Assembly: GCA_037042915.1 (NCBI GenBank)
Contig: CM073194.1
Location: forward strand, 930,001-994,000
Reading direction: 5' to 3'
Source: Auricularia sp. M13
Lineage: Eukaryota; Basidiomycota; Agaricomycetes; Auriculariales; Auriculariaceae
Length of the DNA: 64,000 nucleotides
Shown here: positions 2,642 to 51,565 of the stretch, in pieces
How the letters are laid out: the number at the start of each line of letters is the position of its first letter
Position numbering within the stretch: position 1 is the stretch's first letter
The notes under the pieces: model-generated
The model's input: the letters and a program-made list of their open reading frames with translations, nothing else
The model's database searches: none
Told to the model about the DNA's origin: nothing
Program-made: the position numbers and the translations under genes

Positions 2642-2650
2642 GGATCGAAC
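2642..2650. repeat. Target-site duplication of element A, left copy
   Basis: GGATCGAAC directly abuts the left inverted repeat and is repeated exactly at 8396-8404 after the right one. If the terminal C/G pair is counted as part of the TIR instead, the duplication reads as the 7-mer GATCGAA; the 9-bp reading is the longest. Confidence 0.85.
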
Positions 2651-2776
2651 CATACTCCTACCCAGTGGACTTCGCACTGTTTGGCCCTGTTGTGACATCA
2701 CGAACGGGCCAAGTGCGAAGCACCACTGGCAACACTTGCATAAGCGCCCGTTCGGCCGAGCTCCGGATCATGCTCG
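2651..2776 (+). repeat. Left terminal inverted repeat of element A
   Basis: 126 bp starting CATACTCCTACCCAGTGG and ending ATCATGCTCG. It matches the reverse complement of 8270-8395 at every base I compared; similarity stops sharply after 2776. It contains an internal inverted pair (CTTCGCACT..GGCCC with GGGCC..AGTGCGAAG, about 2670-2720) able to form a hairpin. Confidence 0.93.
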
Positions 2777-2851
2777 ACCGCGACGGGACGGACGCAGATC
2801 AGCTTAGATTGCGATTGTCACGATTGCGAGGCACATTCTCTCTGCCACGCT

Positions 2852-5664
2852 ATGAAGCTGCACCTAGCTCTCGATTACTTGCGCAGCATTGGATATAGAC
2901 CTGAACAGCTGTTTGTTGACTTGCTCACAGGGCATGATGCTCAGTCGGCATCGTTTGTTGCAACACTGCCCTCCGTTCTGGATGCCATCCAGCGCCACGC
3001 TCCCACCGCTGCTCAGTCCTGGGTGTTTCGGATGACTGCTTCCTTCCCAGGACAGATCGTTGAAGGGCTGCTACTCTCGCCCGACGTGAATCTGCGGGCT
3101 AGTTTTCTTGTCGGACTGCCTCATTTACTGGACTCGGTCTTGCTGCATCTTCCAGAGGTTATGGAGCGTTGGATCCTCAGCAATGCCATGCAGTTATACC
3201 ATAAAGAACTCCTGCGTACAACAGCCAAGGATGCCGGCTTTCAGTCTAATGCTACGCACATGCAACCTGAGCAAGTCGAGCAATTCAGCATCGCCGATCT
3301 GGCTCGCAAGCTGCGGGTGCTTGCACCGCGGCTTTGGGAACTGGTTATTCTGTTGCTTTCACCCAAGGACCACCGGCATTTGTTACGGCCGCGTCACTTG
3401 CATGGGCGCGTCATCGATCGCGGTGGTGATCTCGGCGGTGAAGGCGATCGCCTCCTGCCGCAGGCCACCGCACGTTCGCCCTCTCCCGTTTCTGATGCAA
3501 TGGAAGTCGATGGTAGCATGGAAGAGGCCGCGACGAAACCCACTGCTTCTGGTGACTTAGGCGGTGACGATGAGGATGCCCGTGCGGCAATGCTTGAGAT
3601 TGTGAGTTCACCCGCTCGAGAGATTTCTCAGCTCACAGGTATTTGCAGAAGGCAGTAACTATAATAGGATCTTGGCAACAAAGCATTAACCAGCGCTGCA
3701 ACGCTGTGCAGGCCAATATGGGACTATTCCTGCATCTGACGCGCGTCGCGGACACCGTTATCAGCGTTCTCAATCATATTGGCGCCTCAACCAGCAATGC
3801 GACCATCGAACGATCTTGCGAATCGCTGGATAAGGTCTGCGAGCACCTTCTCGGCGAGGAGGGGAAGACTCTCACCACACAGGAGGCATACGATAATTTC
3901 AACTTCAAGCAACGTGTTGCGGTGCCCGTTCCGGGGCGCGGCGACCTCTTCATCAGCGCCACTTCTGCAATTGCCATTCGCTCGCATCCCTGCCTCTCGA
4001 AGGAGGATTTCAAGCATGCAGAGACCGTCTGGTATCTGAATCCCGCAAATCGTCTCCCTCGCTCACCGTCCCAACCGACACCGTTCACGGCGACTTACAT
4101 GCAGGTCCTGCAGCTTCCCCGCGTTCTTGACCCGCGGCGTGCAACATCAGCTGCTCTGGGAGCCGCCAAACTACCACATACGCTGTCTATGCATGCCTGG
4201 CACATCCGACGCATCCTTCTTGAGCGCTCTGCTGCGATGGCGGGATTCCGAAACGCTCTTAGCCCGCCGGATATCGTCTTGGAAATTCCGCTGCACAAGA
4301 CCGAGTATCTGCCTATGCGAGCCATGGAGCTTAACCAGTCCACGACTCAGGGAAACATCCTAGCTCTCGAAAAGATGTTTGCTCAGGTCAAATTTCCCGA
4401 CGAGGCCGCGAAGGACTATGTTACGTTCGTGCATGCCGATCTTGGCGGCTGTGAGCGCATTCACTCCGCGCAGTCTGATCGCTGCGACGAGGACCGCCCG
4501 ATTGACCAGTTCAAGAACGTTGTAGACTGCCCAGGTCTCTTTCACATGAAGATGGCTTCGACGGACGCCATCTTCCGCATCCACCTCGCCAAATCCGACG
4601 CGCGTCATCCCGAGTCCTGCGCGTGGAAATATGTTCGCAGACTGCGACCTCAGGCTGGCGAACAGGTTAAATTCAGTGGGAAGCAGGGTCCTGGGTACCG
4701 GCGGATGCACGATGTCTCTCGCCATATCACTTGGGCTTTGGTTCTGGATGCCTGGACTCTTGAGGTCGAGCGCTGGAGTGACGGTGTTTGCACATCGCTT
4801 GTCGACTTTGCCAACCTCCTGAAGGGTTCTTATACGCCACGGCAGGTTTCGTTCATCATCAATTCACTCTCCGTGACGATTGCGCAGAAGTATGTCGCCG
4901 GAAACGACTTTCATCGGTCGCGTCTTGCACCACAGTCTACCCGCGACCAAGTCTTCGAGAACTGGCAGCTCTGGCTGTCTCATGCCCTGCTTGATGAGGA
5001 GCTCGACTTTGCCATCAAGCAGATGGATGTCGGCCGAGTTTGTCTCTGCCTATTCCACTGGATGTTCATCTTCCAAGCGACAGGAAAGCACCCCTACGCC
5101 CGCCACACTCTTCGCGTTCTTCTGAACATTGGATATGCTTTTCCAAAGCCTCTTGCTCGCGCATTCCTCATGAGTTGGATTATTAATCCCACGGGGAAGC
5201 CAGGAGGAGGGCGGGGAGTTGATTGGCTGGTTGAGCTGTTCAATCTTTACTTGAAGGTAACGTGCTGCTTCACACTTTCCCACACACTCTCACAAATCCA
5301 GAATGTTCATTCTGGGTCTTCCTCGAACTTTGGCATCAAGAGAATTGTGAAGATCTCGACGCTCATCTCAATATTCAAGTTTGTTTTCGACAACTTCATC
5401 CTCAATTACCGAATTCTTACGAGGAATGTGCGACATGCACCACCCAACATGACGGAGACGATTGAGAATCTGCGGCACATTATCCATGAAGACAATGCGC
5501 TGCGATTCACTCCGGGTCGGCGCACTCCGTATCAAGTTCCTGACGCGCTGGCGCAGGGCCAGAATGCCGTACAAACAGGTGGTGTGGGAGAACTTACAGA
5601 CCACAGGGAGGATAGCGAGGAGAATCAGCTGTCCGATGCTGAATCGGACTTTTTCGACGACTAG
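2852..5664 (+). CDS. DUF6589 protein of element A (candidate transposase)
   Basis: Model join(2852..3601, 3649..5256, 5302..5664), 906 aa. The 47-bp intron 3602-3648 and 45-bp intron 5257-5301 are GT..AG and lie at the same places as in the element B homologue. The N-terminus is helical (LDYLRSIGYRPEQLFVDLL), followed by an acidic, low-complexity stretch. The DUF6589 core follows: LPMRAMELNQSTTQGNILAL, then FVHADLGGCERIHS (D514), CPGLFHMKMASTDAIFRIHL (D556) and HPYARHTLRVLL (H736 where the B copy has Glu). The C-tail is acidic. Function is not established for the family; the location inside a TIR element suggests transposase or an accessory. The first Met after the TIR was taken as start. No nonsense or frameshift was seen. 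Confidence 0.8.
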
Positions 5665-5744
5665 TACTTCGCACACACACTGGCAGCTGATCGTGACCCG
5701 AAAATGTTTTGCAGGGCGCAAGTGCAACTATAAAATTACCTAGG

Positions 5745-8181
5745 CTAAGAAGCAGATCCGGAAGCACCAGGCGTGCCATTATGTGGTTTTAGAAGCATGG
5801 GAGATGCATGCGGAGTTGCGCTTTGCGCAGCGGTTGGTGTTGGCGGCAGAACACAATTATAAGGCGAGTTTGGGAGGGGTGCAAACCGGAATGCCGCGCC
5901 ATTAGCGCGTGTAAGTGGGCGAGGAGTTGCTGGGAGTGTGCCTGTGGCTGCCGCTCCTCCCGTTTGATGGACAGGAGGAATGTTCTCCTTCGCCGCTGCA
6001 TTCCGTCTTGCGGCCTGCTCTTCCAGATATAATGCTCGTAAAGGGCATTCCGCCTGATTCTCTGAGCCAGTGTGAGTAAGATATCGATAGAATACTGATC
6101 TACTCACTAGCATGACCGACTGCTTTGCAATTGCTGCAGGTAGGCTGCGCTTTCCGGCGCACAGAATCTGAGGCTGATGGCAGTGGAGGTTTAGGGAATG
6201 CGGCATCGATGAGAGACACAATCTCATCGCCGTAGGTATCTGAGAGAAGCCACCCAGTTTCACGAAGGAGGGTGGAACGGTCCTTGATGACTCCGCGGTG
6301 TGCAATGTGCACGATACGTGCAATGACAGTGTCGCCAAGCAAGGCTGTCGGTCCCCAAATCTCGTCTCGGAACTCCAGGGCATGCTTGTCCGTGCGCCAC
6401 TTCCGTAGGTATGCCTCCAGAATGTCCTCTTGTTCCCCAGGCTCGTGTGTTCTCGACGCGGCGGTTTTCCGAGGGAGAGGAGGCTTTGCGGGCGGTAAGT
6501 ATGACAGTATCCGCCGCATCCAACTCGGAAGATTTGAGGGCGGATCGTCCAGATTAATGCTGTAGTCACAGCACAGAGTGGGAGGCGGAGGTGAACAGCG
6601 AGGGCAGACATGAGACGGATCTGCGGGGAGCGGACATGTGTCTGCATCTGTGAATACGTCAGTGCGCGTATCCCGACGGCACATAGTATGGGATCCAGGA
6701 AGCACAGTCGCAGCGGGGTTGATACCAGCATATTTGAGGACAGCGGGGTCCGCACCCTGTAGATGCGATGTCACAGCGCTCGGAGCTGCAGCAGAAGAGT
6801 TCAACTTTACACGCTTCGAAGGACGTGCATCCGAACTGTCGGTTGAGTCGCTTTCCTCGCGGGGGTAGAACTTGTCCTCCACGAATAGTAGCGCTAGCGT
6901 TTGGAGCGATCGATCCCGCCCTGCGCGGCCCGAGCGCTGCGCAAGGCCGCTGAACGTGAGACCTTTGATTCCCCACTGCATGACCACCATGACGTCTGGA
7001 ATATCGATCCCCTGCGCAATATTTTCATCAATCCACTCATTTTGAAGTGAAACTATGCATACCAGACCAGCAGCATCAGTACAAAACATGCCCCAGACAC
7101 CACCCTTTCGAAAACCTTCCATGCGGGTCGTTTTGTACCCATCCGTCTTGTCCGAATGATACCAGCAGATCTTGTCCTGGTGGTGCATCGGAAGAAAGTT
7201 GAGCAGATAGATGGCAGCATCACGGCACTCCTGTTTTGACTGCATAAAGACCATGAACTTTGGCGGTGGTGCACAGTCCAATGGGAGAGACATCGGGTCG
7301 TCCGGCAGAAGTACGCGCATGGCAGAGTAGCTAGTCGCCGGTCCTGGCATCCGGCGAACGGCCAGAACTGTATTGCCTGGGTTTCCGTCCAGGCGAATGA
7401 CACAAGTCTTCGTGGGAGCCATTCCGAGTCTGTCCATCGTAGTGAGACGCGAGTGTCGTGTTAGAGTTGCCGAAGCCAGCACAAATCGAATGTGAGACTT
7501 GAGCCGGTGAAGAATGATGTCCAGGTTAAGATAATCGAAGCGAAACGTCGTCCCCCACTCTTCAATACAGTGAGCCTCGTCGAATACAATGCGCGCAAGA
7601 CGTGTGGCCAGCGGTTCACGATTGAACAGATCCCGAACTTCCAGAATAAGAAGCATCTCTGGCGAAAGAATGACCACCTGATAAACACAAGCAGAAATTT
7701 TCTTATGGGATTTAGCAGAGAACAAGACTGAATTCAATAGACATACAATCAGGAGCTCTTTGCAGAATGTTTCCGACGTTATCTCACATGCAGAAACACC
7801 GTAAGATAGAAAGCTGGAAAGATGTTGATGTCCGAGAGAAAGCAGCGGTGAGATGACGAAGATGATATGGTCGGCATTGAGCAGAAGAGGTGCCAGGAAT
7901 GCCAGAGTTTTGCCAGCGCCGCATGGCGCTAGGATAACAAGGTGCTGATCCCCCGCATTCTGAACAAGCGTTGCATAAGCTTGCCACGTGCACAGCATAA
8001 CACCGAGCATAGACTGCAGTTTAGCGCGTAATGCTTCGATGGCAGCGGTACTCTCTGTCGAGCAGCTTTGCTCCTCGCGCGCAGTGTCGGAAACAGTGGC
8101 AGCAGGTACTGGAGGGGTGGCACCTGAATCGGCCGGAGGACAGCGGGATGCAGCGCTATATTCGTCCACCGCATCTGCCAT
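5745..8181 (-). CDS. RecQ-like superfamily II DNA helicase of element A
   Basis: Model complement(join(5745..6061, 6108..7011, 7063..7677, 7747..8181)), 756 aa. Introns of 46, 51 and 69 bp are GT..AG; splicing restores motifs. Motif 0 is near LCTWQAY, motif I is CGAGKT (about residue 90; Cys replaces the usual Thr), motif II DEAHCIEEWGTTFRFDY is RecQ-type, motif III is SAT, motif V is TDAAGL-GIDIPDV across intron 7012-7062, and motif VI is QRSGRAGRD. A Cys-rich segment (CPRC..CC) follows, then a WR..FG..ALL..W..YG module shared with element B's helicase. A CCHC-like zinc knuckle (CSNCKAVGH..C) is completed across the last intron, with a Ser/Pro tail. Start at Met 8181 is preferred because the longer ORF runs through the TIR. 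Likely role: unwinding DNA during transposition. Confidence 0.82.
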
Positions 8182-8269
8182 GCTGCTGGACGGATGGCAC
8201 GGCGGTGGCTCGGTGACAGTGGTCTGCGCGGTAGAAGACAAAAATCTAGCACGGACATCGGTCGCTCGG

Positions 8270-8395
8270 CGAGCATGATCCGGAGCTCGGCCGAACGGGC
8301 GCTTATGCAAGTGTTGCCAGTGGTGCTTCGCACTTGGCCCGTTCGTGATGTCACAACAGGGCCAAACAGTGCGAAGTCCACTGGGTAGGAGTATG
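8270..8395 (-). repeat. Right terminal inverted repeat of element A
   Basis: Reverse complement of 2651-2776 over 126 bp, ending GGGTAGGAGTATG, followed at once by the second GGATCGAAC (8396-8404). Confidence 0.93.
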
Positions 8396-8404
8396 GGATC
8401 GAAC
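8396..8404. repeat. Target-site duplication of element A, right copy
   Basis: GGATCGAAC, identical to 2642-2650. Confidence 0.85.
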
Positions 8405-45186: not shown

Positions 45187-45345
45187 ATGGATGGGTCGGG
45201 CATCGGTGGCTTGCTAGTCTCGTAACCAGACCTCCGGAGCCGGCCCGGCAGCTCCCGCATTTTCGTGTTTGGGTATTGTTTGGTCGCTGCTCGGACGGCT
45301 CCTTGAGGTCTGGTGGATTTTGTAGAGGCGAGCACGCCAGGCCGC
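45187..45345 (+). repeat. Left inverted repeat of element B (diverged)
   Basis: Pairs with 51365-51565 in reverse complement: best over 45311-45338, weaker over about 45193-45260 and 45265-45300 (TTTTCGTGTTTGG and TCGCTGCTCGG). Confidence 0.6.
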
Positions 45346-45438
45346 CTTCAAGACACAACCTCCCCTGTACTGCTTCTATTCGCTTTATACACGCTATAAC
45401 AGCGCCTCCACCGCTTTGTGCAAGTCCAGGTCACGAAT

Positions 45439-48262
45439 ATGGCCGAGAACGGCGGGTTTTCGTCGCCGGTTAGCCGCGCCTACAGCGGTAGTGACTACAT
45501 GCCGAGCTCAAGCCCGCTGCCCGCGTCAAGTGTTCGGGGCATGTCCAGCTCGGATCCGGCATACGACGAAACTGTGTTGGCAACACCACGAGCTCAACGG
45601 CGCAAACCTGCTCGGCGCCGCCCTCGTTCCATGCGCCAGAAGGTCTACCGTGTTCTGCGGTCACTGTCAAAGTGCGGGCTCTCGCTCGCGCAGTTCCTGG
45701 ATGCGCTTTTCTACGGGGACAAGGATTGCATTTCTGATCCTGCCATGATACAAATCCGCCGTGGTTTTGCTCAGAGTCCACTCCTACCAAAGCTCCTCAA
45801 TAATATTCTGCACCCACCCCATCGAGCTGCCACACGGCGTGGCCGTCTATTCAAGGGAGCTAGAGCCGTGCTCGTCCAGTTTGCATTTGATGCGGTCTCA
45901 GAGCGTGTGGTGTCCGAGCTGAAACGCTACGAATCCAAGACTGCTGGGGAAGCCTCTGCCTCAATCGACGGCGATTCCCTACTCGCCATTTCGCTAGACG
46001 GCATAGTCGCCGACTTTGAAAACCACTGCCCGCGGCTGGTGTCGCTAGTTCGTGGTGTTATGACAAGCAAGAACGCGTTACGGCGCACCGGACAGCGGCA
46101 CAAGCTACACCATCGCAACGTGAGTGGAAACATGTATACGTCGCACAGACTGCTTATACACTGCAGATGGTTGCTGTCATTAGTAGTATGGTACTTTTTG
46201 CTCGCTCTCAGCGACAGAACCTCCTGCAGCGGAAACTTTCAATCTACATGAAGGCGAAGGGAACACCGACGAAAGTCTTTGACTTCTTGCAGTCAATTGG
46301 CTTAACTCTCAGCTACAGCTGGACACTCTCAGCCATTGACAGCCTTGCCGATGCTGCTACTGCCGATCTGCGTGCCTGGGTGGCCACCAAAGCCGCCATC
46401 GTCAACATGGACAACGTCCTTCTTGTCTATCCCGTTCAGAGTCAGCGCATTCTCAACCGGACGGAGACTATAAATGCGACGGCTTGTACTGTTATCAAAG
46501 TACCCCTGCATACGCTTCCTACCCTGAATTCATACGGGGCTGAGCGTGCGGCACTCCGCACTGAGATGCGGCTTCTACGATCTACCAATGCGGTCTTGCC
46601 GCGTCTCAGCTTTGTCGATCTCATTGTCCCCGCTGCGGAAGAACGTCTTGCAAAGCTGCACATTCACTATATCCTCCTTGCACTTCGTGACGCCCCAGGC
46701 TTCCAGGGCTTCCGGCATCGCGACGACATCGTCTTTGCACCTCCTCCCCCGACTCGCCAGCTCCCCACCGGACCTGCTCACCGAACAGAGTACTTCATGC
46801 TCCCAACAGAGCCCATTGACGAGATCAGTTACGAGGGTACCAAACGGTGCATTGCTGCCTTCATGAAGCACATGGGACTCGACAACACCGAGTCTCAGCG
46901 GCGTTATGGGACGGAGTCGGCATTACCCTGGGGAGGCGACGGCCTTACCACAGCTCGCATGCGTGCACTTCAGCGCTACTGTGTCGATGCTAGAAATGGG
47001 TGGGACCGCTACGATTGGCTGGTTCAGTATAGCTGCCTGTTCCACGAGCAGTGGTGGGTTGCAATTGACATCCACCATAATCACTACGGGACATCCGTCG
47101 GGAATGGCCTCGGCCGCGAGATCAAGTTCCTGAATCGTACTGGCATGGCAGCTAACAAAAAGAAACCCGACTTTCATACCCTTGATGAGATGGTCGCCCA
47201 GTTCTGGACGGCGAGCACACTGGATTGTTGGCTCTGGTCTGCAGGCTGCGACTCTCTCCCGGATCTGCTTTCCTGGGCTAATTCTCGTACACCTTCGGAG
47301 CTCCGCACCTTTGCGGAGACTATCTATTTCAAGCGCCAGTCCAGCGCGGCTATCGCAGACCTGGATGACCGGCAACGGCGCAACCCCGCGGACGTCGATG
47401 AGGCACTCTATGCACGGATCCTCGCTGACCGGGATATAGCGTTCTATTTGACGCTTCGCCGCTCATTGAAGAAGGGCGACATTGGCGTTTATATGGACGC
47501 TCTGCCCCGTCTTTTGGCTTTCTACAAAGGAAGCGGAAATGTCCACTACGCCCGAGAGCTGTACGAATCGATGCAGTTCCTTCTCAAGGAGGCATCACCC
47601 GCAATGCGTGACTTCGTCTTAGAACACTGCCTACTAGTCAACGTCTCCGGCCAGCCAGACCGATTCATGCCCACTGGGCAGCTGCAAGAGCATAATAATG
47701 ATAAGATCAAGGTGCGTGGATTCCTTTGCTCTTCTTTCGTTGTGGCTAACATCTCGATGAGTAGAATAATCATAGCACCCACTCGGCTAGTTCGAGCATG
47801 GAGCTGGTCAAGCGCATCTCACCCGCTCTCCCGGTTATGGATGCCATCTGCAAGGACGTCGATGCCAACTTCACTCAGTTGTATCACGGCACACGACACA
47901 GCACTCCGAATTCAGAGCGCGATGTTACGCGCATGCTGGCGCGCTTTTCTGCCGCAAGGATACATCATTTTGTCCCCGAACGCAGATGCAACGCGCGCGA
48001 TAAACCTGTCGATGTTATACGAAAGGGACTGCAGGACTTGCAGTCCAACGAGTATCTCAACGAGTGCTGGAACGAGCGGGAACTCTTCCTTCGGTATGCA
48101 TCCACAGAACAGGAGTTTGGATCGCCTCCTGCCATGGAAGAGTCTCAGCCTCCGGTAGCAGAACCACAACTGTCGGATGCTCATATAGGTATTCATTTTG
48201 ACGATTTGTCCTGGGATGATATCGCTGCCTGTGACGATGCAATGGAGCTAGATATGCATTAG
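45439..48262 (+). CDS. DUF6589 protein of element B (candidate transposase)
   Basis: Model join(45439..46119, 46167..47711, 47765..48262), 907 aa, one residue longer than the element A protein. Introns 46120-46166 (47 bp) and 47712-47764 (53 bp) sit at the homologous places. N-terminal helical repeat VYRVLRSLSKCGLSLAQFLD, then LLQRKLSIYMKAKG..LQSIGLTLSYSWTL, FMLPTEPIDEISYEGTKRCI, ALPWGGDGLTTARMRALQRY (D485), YSCLFHEQWWVAIDIHHNHY (D528), VHYARELYESMQFLL (E691), PAMRDFVLEHCLLVNVSG, and after intron 2 NNHSTHSASSSMELVKRISP to an acidic end. The Met at 45439 is preferred over the upstream in-frame 45418. No frameshift or stop seen; could still be functional. Confidence 0.8.
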
Positions 48263-48273
48263 CACTAGGTACA

Positions 48274-51194
48274 TTAATTCATATGATTATGCTCCTCTTC
48301 ACGCGACGATGGGTTTCGAGGGCGCTTGGCCGTTGGTGTTGCTAGATCAGCACCCTCTGTCGAACGCTTCCGTCCATTCAGGTTGGCAAGCGGACCTGTC
48401 GATCGAGCCACGAGAGGAGTCACTACGTAGTTAGTTGGTGTCCGGTGCGACGTTGGAATGGAACTCGGAGGCAATGGGACACACTGCATGTGTTCCAGCT
48501 GGAACACCATGTGTTGCTCTGGTGCAACTCGGGCTGGGGCACGCATTGCAGGTGTGTGCACTGCGGAAATTTGCAATGGCTGGCATGGCGCTGATTGTGC
48601 GGGCGTCGTTGGTGGCAGCACAGCGGCCGGAGTGTATGCAGCCGACGCCGACGGCTCTGCGCGTCCCGGAGTCGATGAGCGGTGCTGTTCTGGTGTAGAC
48701 GGCGCCGCCGCTGCAGCCATGGACTGACTGACAGCACAGGCATTGATCTGCGCCCGCCGCTGGAGTTCGACCTTTGTTGGGCGACCACGAAGCGTGTGAC
48801 CGGCGCGGACCTGAGCGTCCCGATGGGCCTGCCGGAGCTCCTGCTTCGAAGGACCCTTCTGCTGACGAGCTGCTTGCTTCTGGTTGCGCTCTCGGGTTTT
48901 GGCAACCTCCTTCTCCAGCTGCGCCTCTTCACGGGCCCTGTCCTTCTCGCGCTGCGCCAGCGCTCGGGCTGTTTCCTCCTTGCCGCTGATAAGCTGCAGT
49001 TCGGCAAGCAGCTCAGACTGGTAGCGCCCACAAAGGCCCCATGTTGGTATGACGCTTGCCAAGGTCTGAACGTCCCGTATGCCGCGTTTCTTGCTGATGG
49101 TAAGTAGGTCGGCCTCCGAGAGGACCGCTTGTTCGCCAAACGCGCTCCAGCGCATGTCACGCTTCCATATCCTCCGACGCCACTCATAGATGCGCTCCTT
49201 GGCCTGTTCCAGCTGGTCGCCGCGGCGGTCGCCCATCCCAGCCTCTCGCCGCACACGTGGTGCAGGTTGAGCAGGCTGATTCGGTTCAGTGGCGGACACG
49301 GGGTCGGGTTCGGTACGCGCGCTCGTAACAAGCGCGGCCTTTCGTGCGATACACAGATCACAGCACCCAGATGGGGCATCTACAATAAGGTCAGCACCAG
49401 GTATTTCTCAATCAAGCACGGTAGCGACTGACCATCGTGCGTCGGATTGAGATAGGTTTGGTCAATGACCTGGCCACGGCAGTCGCGAGTGGAAACGAAA
49501 GCGCGTAAGTCTTTTGCTATCTTTTTTGCGTATACGCGGGCCTGTCTGACCGTGTGCTTTGACTTCTGGTTGCGCTTACTTGTCGTTTCCTTTGACAGGG
49601 TAGGAGTAGCTGCGCCTGGGCGGGATGCTTGCATATCGGCAGCACCATCCGCAGTGCTGTCGTTGTCCACCTCCACTTCGACATCTACAAGCTGGATTTC
49701 GTCGTCTTCATCATCGGAGTCGGAGGCGCCGTCAAGACTGTCATTATCTCCTGGATCGGCATCGTCGTCGAGAGTAGGGGCCGATAGCGCTTCAAGTTGT
49801 TCCAGCGAGGTTGCTGACCGCGTTGCAGCGTCAGCCTGAGCTGCAGCCTGCTCATGGTCCGCTTCAAACACTGCCGCCTTTCTGCGCCGCTTCTTGCGTG
49901 GTGCAACCAGTTGGAATACAGATGGCTGGACGAGTAAGATGCAGCGACAAGTGATTTGTGGGTTCCTGCCGCCGCGCCCGCCGCGCTGTATCCAAGTCGT
50001 CAACGAGTCGGGAATCAGGAACTGCACAACCCGGGTAATATTTCGGAAGTCACAGCCCTGCTCACCAGTGAGTAACTTTATCTATTCTGGCTGCAAGAGC
50101 TTACCATGGCAATGGCTTCGGAGCAGACTATTATTCGGGTGGAACCTCGTTCGAAGTTGTACATCGTCCATGCCCGCTGGTGGACTGTTCGTAAGGAATG
50201 GTAGATCTCCACCGTGTGATGCAGGTGCTCCGGTAAGCGCTGCCGAAGGCGATGGGCAAGCTTGTGAGTTGTGACCAGCTTATTTGCGAACAAAAGCTGC
50301 TGCTCGATGTCCTCCGCCTGAACAACATTATCGGGCACCATAAAGTCGACTTCTTCAACGCAACTTTCAGCGCCATTCATACGCCGAACTTCCCATACAA
50401 GATTCTTGCGATGGTTGCCGAGGTTGATGACTTCTGCATCGTCGCCGAACTGCAGCACCTCGCGGATTGTGCGCACATCCTCTGGTGTGGCAGTCGCTGT
50501 GCAGGCGATGAATGGAACACGGTGCGGGAGATATGCTCTGAAGGCGCCAATGCGTGCATAAGTCTTGCGAAAAGAATCCTTCCAACGTGGAATGCAGTGT
50601 GCTTCGTCGACGACCAACACGATGTCCTTTGCCCAATTGGGCTGTGCAGCAAGCTCTCGAAGTCCTCCTTTCGAGTCCATCATCTCTGGAGACGTGCATA
50701 GAGCTTGGAACTTCCGGTCCCGGATTCTCTTGGTTCAAGTTAGTGACAGCTGCTTCGTCAACCTGCTCACGAGCTCACCCGCCGAAGCTCTGGTGTTGCA
50801 GTGTCTGCATTGAATACATGAGCTTCAAGTCCCCACTTTCTGAACTTTTGGACGTGATTTTGGCCGTCAGCTTAGAGGCAGAACAAATAAAACAGGTTGT
50901 ACTCATCTGGAGCTTCTCCAGCTCATTCAGAGGCATGAGCATAATGACTGCAACCGTAGGCCTCAAGAAGGCCGAGATTATCTGTGGCACTGTCTTGCCT
51001 GCCCCCGTAGCGGCCAGTACGATGGTGTCTACGCGCTTGACAGTTGCATTGACACCGGGTTTGACCTGCCAATCGTCCGGAACAAGGCCTGTGGCACGCT
51101 CGAAGTTCTCAACCATGACTTCCCAGGCCGCAGGGACCCAAGCACTGCATAGCTCGCGCGGCAAGACATCCGGTATCACGGATAGCGAACCCAT
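48274..51194 (-). CDS. RecQ-like superfamily II DNA helicase of element B
   Basis: Exons 48274-49379, 49433-50057, 50105-50728, 50779-about 50935, about 50940-51194. Introns 49380-49432, 50058-50104 and 50729-50778 are GT..AG and in phase; the donor near 50930 is unsettled. Motif I LAATGAGKTVPQ; then KFRKWGLEAHVFNADTATPE; SPEMMD; motif II LVVDEAHCIPRWKDSFRKTY; motif III TATA; IIVCSEAIAM joined to GCDFRNITRVVQF (motif V); IQRGGRGGR (motif VI). A Cys cluster completed across an intron (APSGCCDLC) is the RecQ zinc site equivalent. The C-terminal 340 residues hold the WRRRIWKRDMRWSAFGEQAV module shared with element A, a charged coiled coil (EKDRAREEAQLEKEVAK) and a Ser/Pro tail. An upstream first exon is possible. 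Confidence 0.75.
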
Positions 51195-51364
51195 TGGCCG
51201 GCGGAAGACGCGTCTTGACGCGCTTGACGGAGTACGGCCCGCGCTTCGACGCGTTTGCTGGAGAACGATCTGTCACAAACACACGTTAAAAACGCATCCG
51301 CGGGGAAGGGTAGATGCTATACTTTATATTCTGACGTGTTGCAGCAAGGTTGTGGTACGAAGGT

Positions 51365-51565
51365 CACCAGGCGTGCTCGCCTATACAAAATCCACCAGGC
51401 TCTCTAGGGAGGTTCCGCGCGCGCGACAAATACTACAAAACATCGAAATGTCGGATCCAAATACCCGTTACATCCGTTGCTCCCGACTGACCCTTCGCAC
51501 TCGAACCTCCCGTCGAGCCTGGTCACGAGGCTAGTGGCTTGCAGAGGTTACCGACCCGGTGCCGT
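51365..51565 (-). repeat. Right inverted repeat of element B (diverged)
   Basis: Reverse-complement partner of 45187-45345; ends near ACCGACCC (51562). Confidence 0.6.

Follow-up and report, generated by a model that had tools for sequence, protein, structure and literature searches.

The 64,000-nucleotide stretch of Auricularia sp. M13 DNA analyzed here (contig CM073194.1, positions 930,001 to 994,000 of the forward strand; in the following the window) contains a DNA transposon with two genes, one for a protein that carries the Pfam domain DUF6589 (PF20231) and one for a RecQ-type helicase of superfamily 2 (SF2). With its target duplications this focal element occupies positions 2642-8404, the element proper being 2651-8395. 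An initial annotation had claimed inverted repeats identical over 126 bp, a perfect 9-bp duplication and two convergent intron-bearing genes at this place, all of which were borne out by the analysis below (Table 1).

Ends and genes of the focal element

Comparison of the two ends gave 100% complementarity over 127 nt (2650-2776 against 8270-8396). The terminal inverted repeats (TIRs) were nevertheless set at 126 nt, because the outermost complementary base falls by chance within the duplication. A reading with a 10-bp duplication is possible and was rejected, since the tips would then become unequal; the same ambiguity between 9 and 10 bp occurs in L037, L041 and L052, three of the related loci described below. 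When the whole window was scanned for tips of the form YANNCTC with an exact 9- or 10-bp duplication, two hits were obtained, namely the focal element and a second element at 45215-51533. In 15 sequences the same scan gave nine hits, every one inside an accepted element, against one hit in total for five permuted tip motifs. As the YANNCTC motif was derived from these same elements, only the permuted motifs serve as control, and the scan overlooked elements with deviating tips.

Exon models were built from reading frame and splice signals only. The DUF6589 gene contains two introns (3602-3711 and 5257-5301), and its main frame matches PF20231 with an E-value of 4.9e-79. The helicase gene on the opposite strand has introns at 7678-7746 and 7012-7062 and most likely also at 6062-6107; a model ending at 6100 was replaced, as the third intron fits better and extends the gene to 5745. 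The 341-amino-acid frame that supplies this end of the gene is without Pfam match. Only 80 bp separate the stops of the two convergent genes, and no further gene was recognised in the element by Pfam searches of the three main frames and the 341-amino-acid frame.

The helicase frame matches the Pfam domains DEAD (E 1.4e-16) and Helicase_C (E 6.8e-10). Among curated families RecQ comes nearest (recQ_fam, E 2e-19), and residues 143-319 match structures of human RECQ5 (E 1.3e-15), the best solved relatives. It thus resembles the RecQ helicases, among them human RECQ5, BLM and RECQ1, and differs from them in scoring far under the cut-off of the curated RecQ model (69.7 against 219.8 bits), and it is a divergent, element-borne branch. 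Towards the end of the helicase frame (6030-6150, minus strand) lies a cluster of Cys and His residues (CSNC and GH, followed by a C past the probable third intron), which resembles a zinc knuckle; Pfam returned no zinc knuckle in the helicase frames scanned.

Table 1 Positions of the features of the focal element and of the second element within the window.
Feature	Position	Strand	Basis
Left target-site duplication GGATCGAAC	2642..2650	.	perfect 9-bp match with right copy
Left TIR, 126 bp, starts CATACTCCTACCC	2651..2776	+	inverted-repeat comparison
Imperfect palindrome (potential hairpin) in left TIR, 68 nt, begins 12 nt from tip	2662..2729	+	DNA fold
DUF6589 gene, probable DDE transposase, 885 amino acids	2852..5664 (exons 2852-3601, 3712-5256, 5302-5664)	+	PF20231 match, exon model
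Candidate catalytic Asp 1, in YDNFN, upstream of Pfam match	3892..3894	+	alignment, exon model
Candidate catalytic Asp 2, Asp in 20/20 rows	4438..4440	+	alignment, exon model
Candidate catalytic Glu, 12/12 rows reaching position	5233..5235	+	alignment, exon model
RecQ-type SF2 helicase gene, modelled 756 amino acids	5745..8181	-	Pfam matches; GAGKT, DEAH, SAT, QRSGRA motifs
Right TIR, 126 bp, identical with left TIR	8270..8395	-	inverted-repeat comparison
Same palindrome in right TIR	8317..8384	-	DNA fold
Right target-site duplication GGATCGAAC	8396..8404	.	perfect 9-bp match with left copy
Second element, left duplication GTGGCTTGC	45206..45214	.	tip/duplication scan
Second DUF6589/helicase element, tips TAGTCTCG / TAGCCTCG	45215..51533	.	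tip/duplication scan
Second element, DUF6589 match	46608..47714 (C2:976608-977714)	+	PF20231
Second element, helicase match	50090..50743 (C2:980090-980743)	-	focal helicase query
Second element, right duplication GTGGCTTGC	51534..51542	.	tip/duplication scan

Movement and genome-wide pairing of the two genes

Searching the TIR against the 52.1-Mb, 14-contig genome, a check suggested in the initial annotation, gave four matches, of which two are the focal TIRs and two form a pair on contig C8. Identity between the C8 copy and the focal element is 99.4% across 4638 bp and 99.7% across 992 bp; the copy has the same tips and is flanked by its own perfect 9-bp duplication, AGTGGCAGG. It is clear that the focal element has recently moved, because a near-identical copy sits in a different 9-bp duplication. 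The focal element is also the more complete of the two, since the C8 copy is broken by a 5.5-kb stretch and a second insert bearing direct repeats of 184 bp, and its DUF6589 matches fall into five pieces with shifting frames compared with a single piece in the focal element. Taken alone, focal repeats identical over 126 bp could point to an artefact of assembly or to a segmental duplication, and the initial annotation had named an assembly artefact as a possible refutation of its proposal. The artefact is itself refuted by the C8 copy, where the same TIRs are found with other flanks and another duplication, and with the same architecture repeated at many divergent loci this explanation is left with practically no probability.

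The 5.5-kb stretch (G000:C8, L005 556-6039) lies inside the left repeat of the C8 copy and has 106-bp inverted repeats (96%) with tips CAAGGGGCATGC; 43 bp of the host repeat are absent where it inserted. Its open frames are of 373 and 612 amino acids, and the parts scanned are without Pfam match above the cut-off. The other insert (G000:C8, 7032-8774 of the stretch starting at 2894000) is like a long terminal repeat element; its direct repeats of 184 bp are identical, and an overlap of 5 bp suggests a duplication.

With the PF20231 profile at least 36 matches were found in the genome and merged by hand into 21 loci; none was found in 14 control genomes. By tblastn, four scans of viral contigs and one of genome contigs gave no viral or prokaryotic relatives of DUF6589. 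The focal helicase protein as query gave 37 genome matches including itself. When the two sets were compared, again as the initial annotation had suggested, an element-type helicase was present within about 5 kb of 20 of the 21 DUF6589 loci. Eighteen of these (the focal one included) were seen with the focal helicase query, one has an adjoining Helicase_C protein (C4:403 kb), and one was detected with the helicase of another element as query (C5:3967 kb); at C5:4017 kb, a partial DUF6589 match, no helicase was found nearby. Flanks of 5 kb to each side of the 21 loci cover about 0.4% of the genome, so that the pairing can hardly be due to chance. Judged by coordinates, the two genes are convergent in 16 of the 20 pairs and divergent in 4 (C1:3295, C4:3537, C2:730 and C1:4945 kb).

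Protein distances for DUF6589 and for the helicase were compared in 15 of 18 elements, L053-L055 being left out for coverage. The correlation was r 0.91 over 101 of 105 pairs, and none of 5000 permutations gave a value as high. The focal proteins served as anchors for the alignments, in which stops were passed over, so single distances are rough; the focal and C8 copies, for example, differ by 0.16 in DUF6589 and 0.01 in the helicase, probably as a result of the broken C8 frame. As the distances co-diverge, both proteins have been passed on jointly throughout the family's history. The claim that DUF6589 and helicase form one mobile unit is thus upheld by the TIR found elsewhere, by the separate duplications and by the helicases at 20 of 21 loci.

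Element-type helicase matches without neighbouring DUF6589 were seen at C5:563881-564573, C5:586352-586645 and C8:1235055-1236324, and there are weak helicase matches, also unpaired, which may be host genes. At C3:145 kb, a locus outside the 21, a helicase is accompanied by a DUF6589 match split into pieces, which lie at C3:147.9 and C3:158.3-158.8 kb.

The surroundings were read for 18 of the 21 DUF6589 loci, and related tips with a perfect duplication were found at 14 of them, 13 with 9 bp and one with 10 bp. Besides the focal and C8 duplications and GTGGCTTGC of the second window element, those of 9 bp are GGCTCTTAG (L037), CCTCCGAGC (L038), ACTCTGACC (L041), ACGTTCAGG (L049), GCGCTTGGC (L042), GACGCGGCC (L050), CCGCTTCGC (L054), CCGATATCT (L055), GGGTTTCCC (L052) and CGTTCCTCG (L039); the sole 10-bp case is GTGCCGGAGG (L040). 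The tips are of the types CATACTCC, CAAGCTCC and TAGNCTC with variants such as TAGATTC, all beginning with CA or TA, and the two tips of a pair agree at 11-16 of 16 letters in ten of the 14 elements. Inverted repeats lie at the ends, or close to them, in the focal, C8 and second window elements and in L037, L038, L041, L047 (248 bp, 92%), L049, L050 and L052, and related tips with agreement at 7-13 of 16 letters are present in L039, L040, L042, L054 and L055. For L039 and L040 the ends were placed by eye where two related copies cease matching and were then checked. Scan hits at L051 1314-2197, L042 3677-5275 and L047 3382-6107 and others with one or two mismatches were rejected because they did not span both genes or had unmatched tips, so looser scans yield chance hits.

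In the second window element the DUF6589 protein is 23% identical to the focal one over the aligned parts, the proteins thus being divergent, and a long palindrome lies within the left tip. Two elements too small for genes, L043 526-1059 (534 bp) and L045 524-926 (403 bp), have CATACTCCTTCCC tips and perfect 9-bp duplications, and to judge from these features such gene-less relatives look as if they had been moved in trans. A further small element with family tips (L048 7511-8083) has a duplication matching at 8 of 9 bases. Directly adjoining the C9 element at its left end are 150-bp inverted repeats with 97% identity (L037 1308-1457 / 1955-2104), perhaps belonging to a small element whose edge received the C9 element.

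DUF6589 as probable transposase and the relation to AcademH

Over 20 DUF6589 loci an Asp is invariant, as is a His that follows it after 35 residues (20/20 each), and a Glu within a D...E..N motif is present in all 12 rows that extend to it, with 13 aligned sequences being 17-49% identical to the focal protein. The first acid of a triad is absent from the Pfam domain, and 150-501 nt before the match an Asp-Asn (DN) motif is found at 19 of the 20 loci in the forms (Y/F)DN[LVFM], IDN[IA], LDN[VA] and MDNV. Both residues of the motif are invariant in a seven-row alignment that reaches farther upstream. In these counts the C8 row is not independent of the focal one, and the loose DN pattern matched other places too, which were set aside by position and context. 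In the focal protein 182 residues separate the two Asp and 265 the second Asp and the Glu. The acid of an M..(D/N)(E/Q)S motif was rejected as first catalytic residue, being Asn in the focal and other proteins. To judge from conservation, DUF6589 thus has three acids of the DDE kind. Because these acids are kept and no gene other than the helicase was recognised with it in the focal element, we infer, in support of the initial annotation, that DUF6589 is probably the DDE transposase of the element with the helicase as its partner. This assignment of DUF6589 is new here.

The helicase-bearing lineage of Academ DNA transposons is known as AcademH, reportedly from a paper by Kojima in 2020, and its members have TIRs, as has the focal element. 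According to excerpts of two papers, AcademH duplications are of 9 or 10 bp (3 or 4 bp in AcademX) with links to a helicase and a nuclease (PMC10045372), DEAD and Helicase_C domains are tied to AcademH, KolobokH or Helitron, and in Basidiomycota, Ascomycota and Mucoromycota AcademH occurs in low copy number (PMC10799480). The element described here agrees with this in its SF2 helicase with DEAD and Helicase_C, in inverted repeats, in 9- or 10-bp duplications (14 of the 18 loci read), in its fungal host and in low copy number. DUF6589 and subterminal hairpins are not mentioned in those excerpts. The element is most likely an AcademH, judged by helicase and duplication length as described, and the suggestion of the initial annotation that it may be one stands for these two characters. 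AcademH proteins in Repbase would then be likely to match PF20231.

In a study on a mushroom, widespread putative nonautonomous Academ elements are reported, with autonomous partners sought by an Academ profile (PMC8290104), so others have met this group. DUF6589 is named in no paper of the literature searched, and the four papers with the string PF20231 were off subject by title. Within that literature the link to DUF6589 is, as had been supposed, undescribed, and it may be known to curators all the same.

Collectively, we consider it very probable that the focal element is a complete, recently moved and probably autonomous AcademH-like DNA transposon in which DUF6589 is most likely the DDE transposase and the helicase its partner. 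Several observations weigh against this interpretation. In L007, L012, L016, L021 and L023 the DN motif is in a different frame from the Pfam match, as if across an intron or a break, and L024 (1 of 20 loci) is without the motif; the Asp-Asp spacing of 182 residues also seems long for a DDE core. AlphaFold, run with the two window sequences, gave a predicted local distance difference test (pLDDT) score of 34.8 and a predicted template modelling (pTM) score of 0.23, too low for an RNase H fold to be recognised, no PDB sequence matched DUF6589 up to E 10, and no transposase family was among the Pfam matches of 13 DUF6589 sequences. On the side of the ends, the tip pairs of L039, L040, L052 and L055 agree at 7-9 of 16 letters only, the L047 duplication matches at 7 of 9 bases only, and no ends were found at L048, L051 and L053 (3 of the 18 loci read).

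The gene-less short copies show that the ends can be moved without internal genes, and DUF6589 and the helicase might accordingly be passengers of a unit that another protein transposes in trans. The presence of DUF6589 at all 14 loci with ends is no evidence in this matter, as DUF6589 was the bait. What makes the passenger explanation very improbable is that no other transposase family was found in the focal open frames scanned or in the 13 DUF6589 sequences, that the pair has been kept over protein distances reaching at least 0.66 (DUF6589) and 0.70 (helicase) among the pairs listed, and that the acids are retained although the 13 aligned sequences are only 17-49% identical to the focal one. 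A different objection concerns the class of the element. DUF6589/helicase elements might be a superfamily separate from Academ that has merely converged with it in helicase and duplication length. This appears improbable to us, since a DEAD/Helicase_C SF2 helicase, 9- or 10-bp duplications and a fungal host are the very combination given for AcademH in the excerpts above (PMC10045372, PMC10799480).

KolobokH, another lineage of fungal DNA transposons with a RecQ helicase, would also account for the helicase type, the genome being rich in transposon families of fungi, and KolobokH has been reported from fungi only (PMC9587614). Kolobok elements, however, have 4-bp TTAA duplications and 5'-RR termini (PMC9587614). 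The duplications here are of 9 or 10 bp and not TTAA, by which KolobokH is all but refuted, the tips are CA or TA instead of 5'-RR, and the helicase has a gene of its own on the opposite strand; we see hardly any chance for this assignment. Helitrons are not known to make a target duplication, and here duplications are present. Nor did Pfam searches of the three main focal frames return any HUH family, to which the Helitron nuclease belongs (PMC12730594). The KDZ (Kyakuja/Dileera/Zisupton) elements are likewise DNA transposons multiplied in fungi, but Zisupton duplications are of 8 bp (PMC12730594), and the KDZ transposase family is a different one, with no match among the 13 DUF6589 sequences scanned. 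With 149 KDZ (PF18758) and 6 MULE matches, other DNA transposons are plentiful in the genome.

For the AcademH-like element, we propose a mechanism in which the DUF6589 protein would recognise the inverted ends, cut them and join them to the target across a 9-bp stagger, whose repair would leave the 9-bp duplication that is seen. The RecQ-type helicase of the convergent gene would most likely open or remodel the ends or the strand-transfer product, and the gene-less short relatives would be mobilised in trans. No function has been assigned to the Pfam family DUF6589, which has at least 21 loci in this genome; if the proposal is true, its proteins should be annotated as genes of mobile elements and not of the host, and likewise the adjoining RecQ-like helicases, which would otherwise be misread as expansions of a host repair family. 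With a defined candidate transposase, a helicase, known ends and a known target duplication, the element would also offer a clear model for the role of a helicase in cut-and-paste transposition.

Palindromes inside the tips

The palindrome in the focal TIR folds as DNA with -33.6 kcal/mol (z -5.96), and 0 of 200 shuffles were as stable. Values of z <= -3 were reached at about 15 of 34 ends of 17 elements, compared with 1 of 90 interior stretches. A fixed pairing measure (at least 10 of 12 letters paired, the first arm beginning 9-20 nt from the tip) was passed by 16 of 34 ends and 9 of 300 interior stretches, the focal and C8 ends in these numbers being mutual copies. The hairpin is strong in the focal and C8 elements, L042 and L049, and at one end only of the second window element, L050 and L052; it is weak at several other ends and absent in the CAAGCTCC group (L038, L041 and L047), and because of this group it cannot be needed by all members. 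Hairpin-forming sequence in many tips of such elements is new here. The palindromes could serve in duplex DNA as inverted binding sites arranged in pairs, or they could be a true hairpin substrate, for which a helicase would make sense. Carrying the latter further, one may speculate that DUF6589 is the transposase of the whole helicase-bearing superfamily and that end palindromes conserved in shape are opened or resolved by the helicase, movement going by unwound or hairpin ends and not by plain duplex cutting; we regard this extended idea as rather unlikely.

Pairing of the arms was further analyzed at 15 ends of 8 chosen elements, where 10 ends had at least 10 of 14 pairs and the focal end 9. 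Among these 10 ends the own arms pair at 11.6 of 14 positions on average, partly through selection, compared with 5.3 for swapped arms, and 1 of 90 swaps reaches 10. By eye, both ends of L049 pair at 12 of 12 positions though 5 of the 12 pairs differ between them. From end to end and from element to element, the palindromes of L049, L050, L042, the second window element and the focal element keep their pairing while the letters of the arms change.

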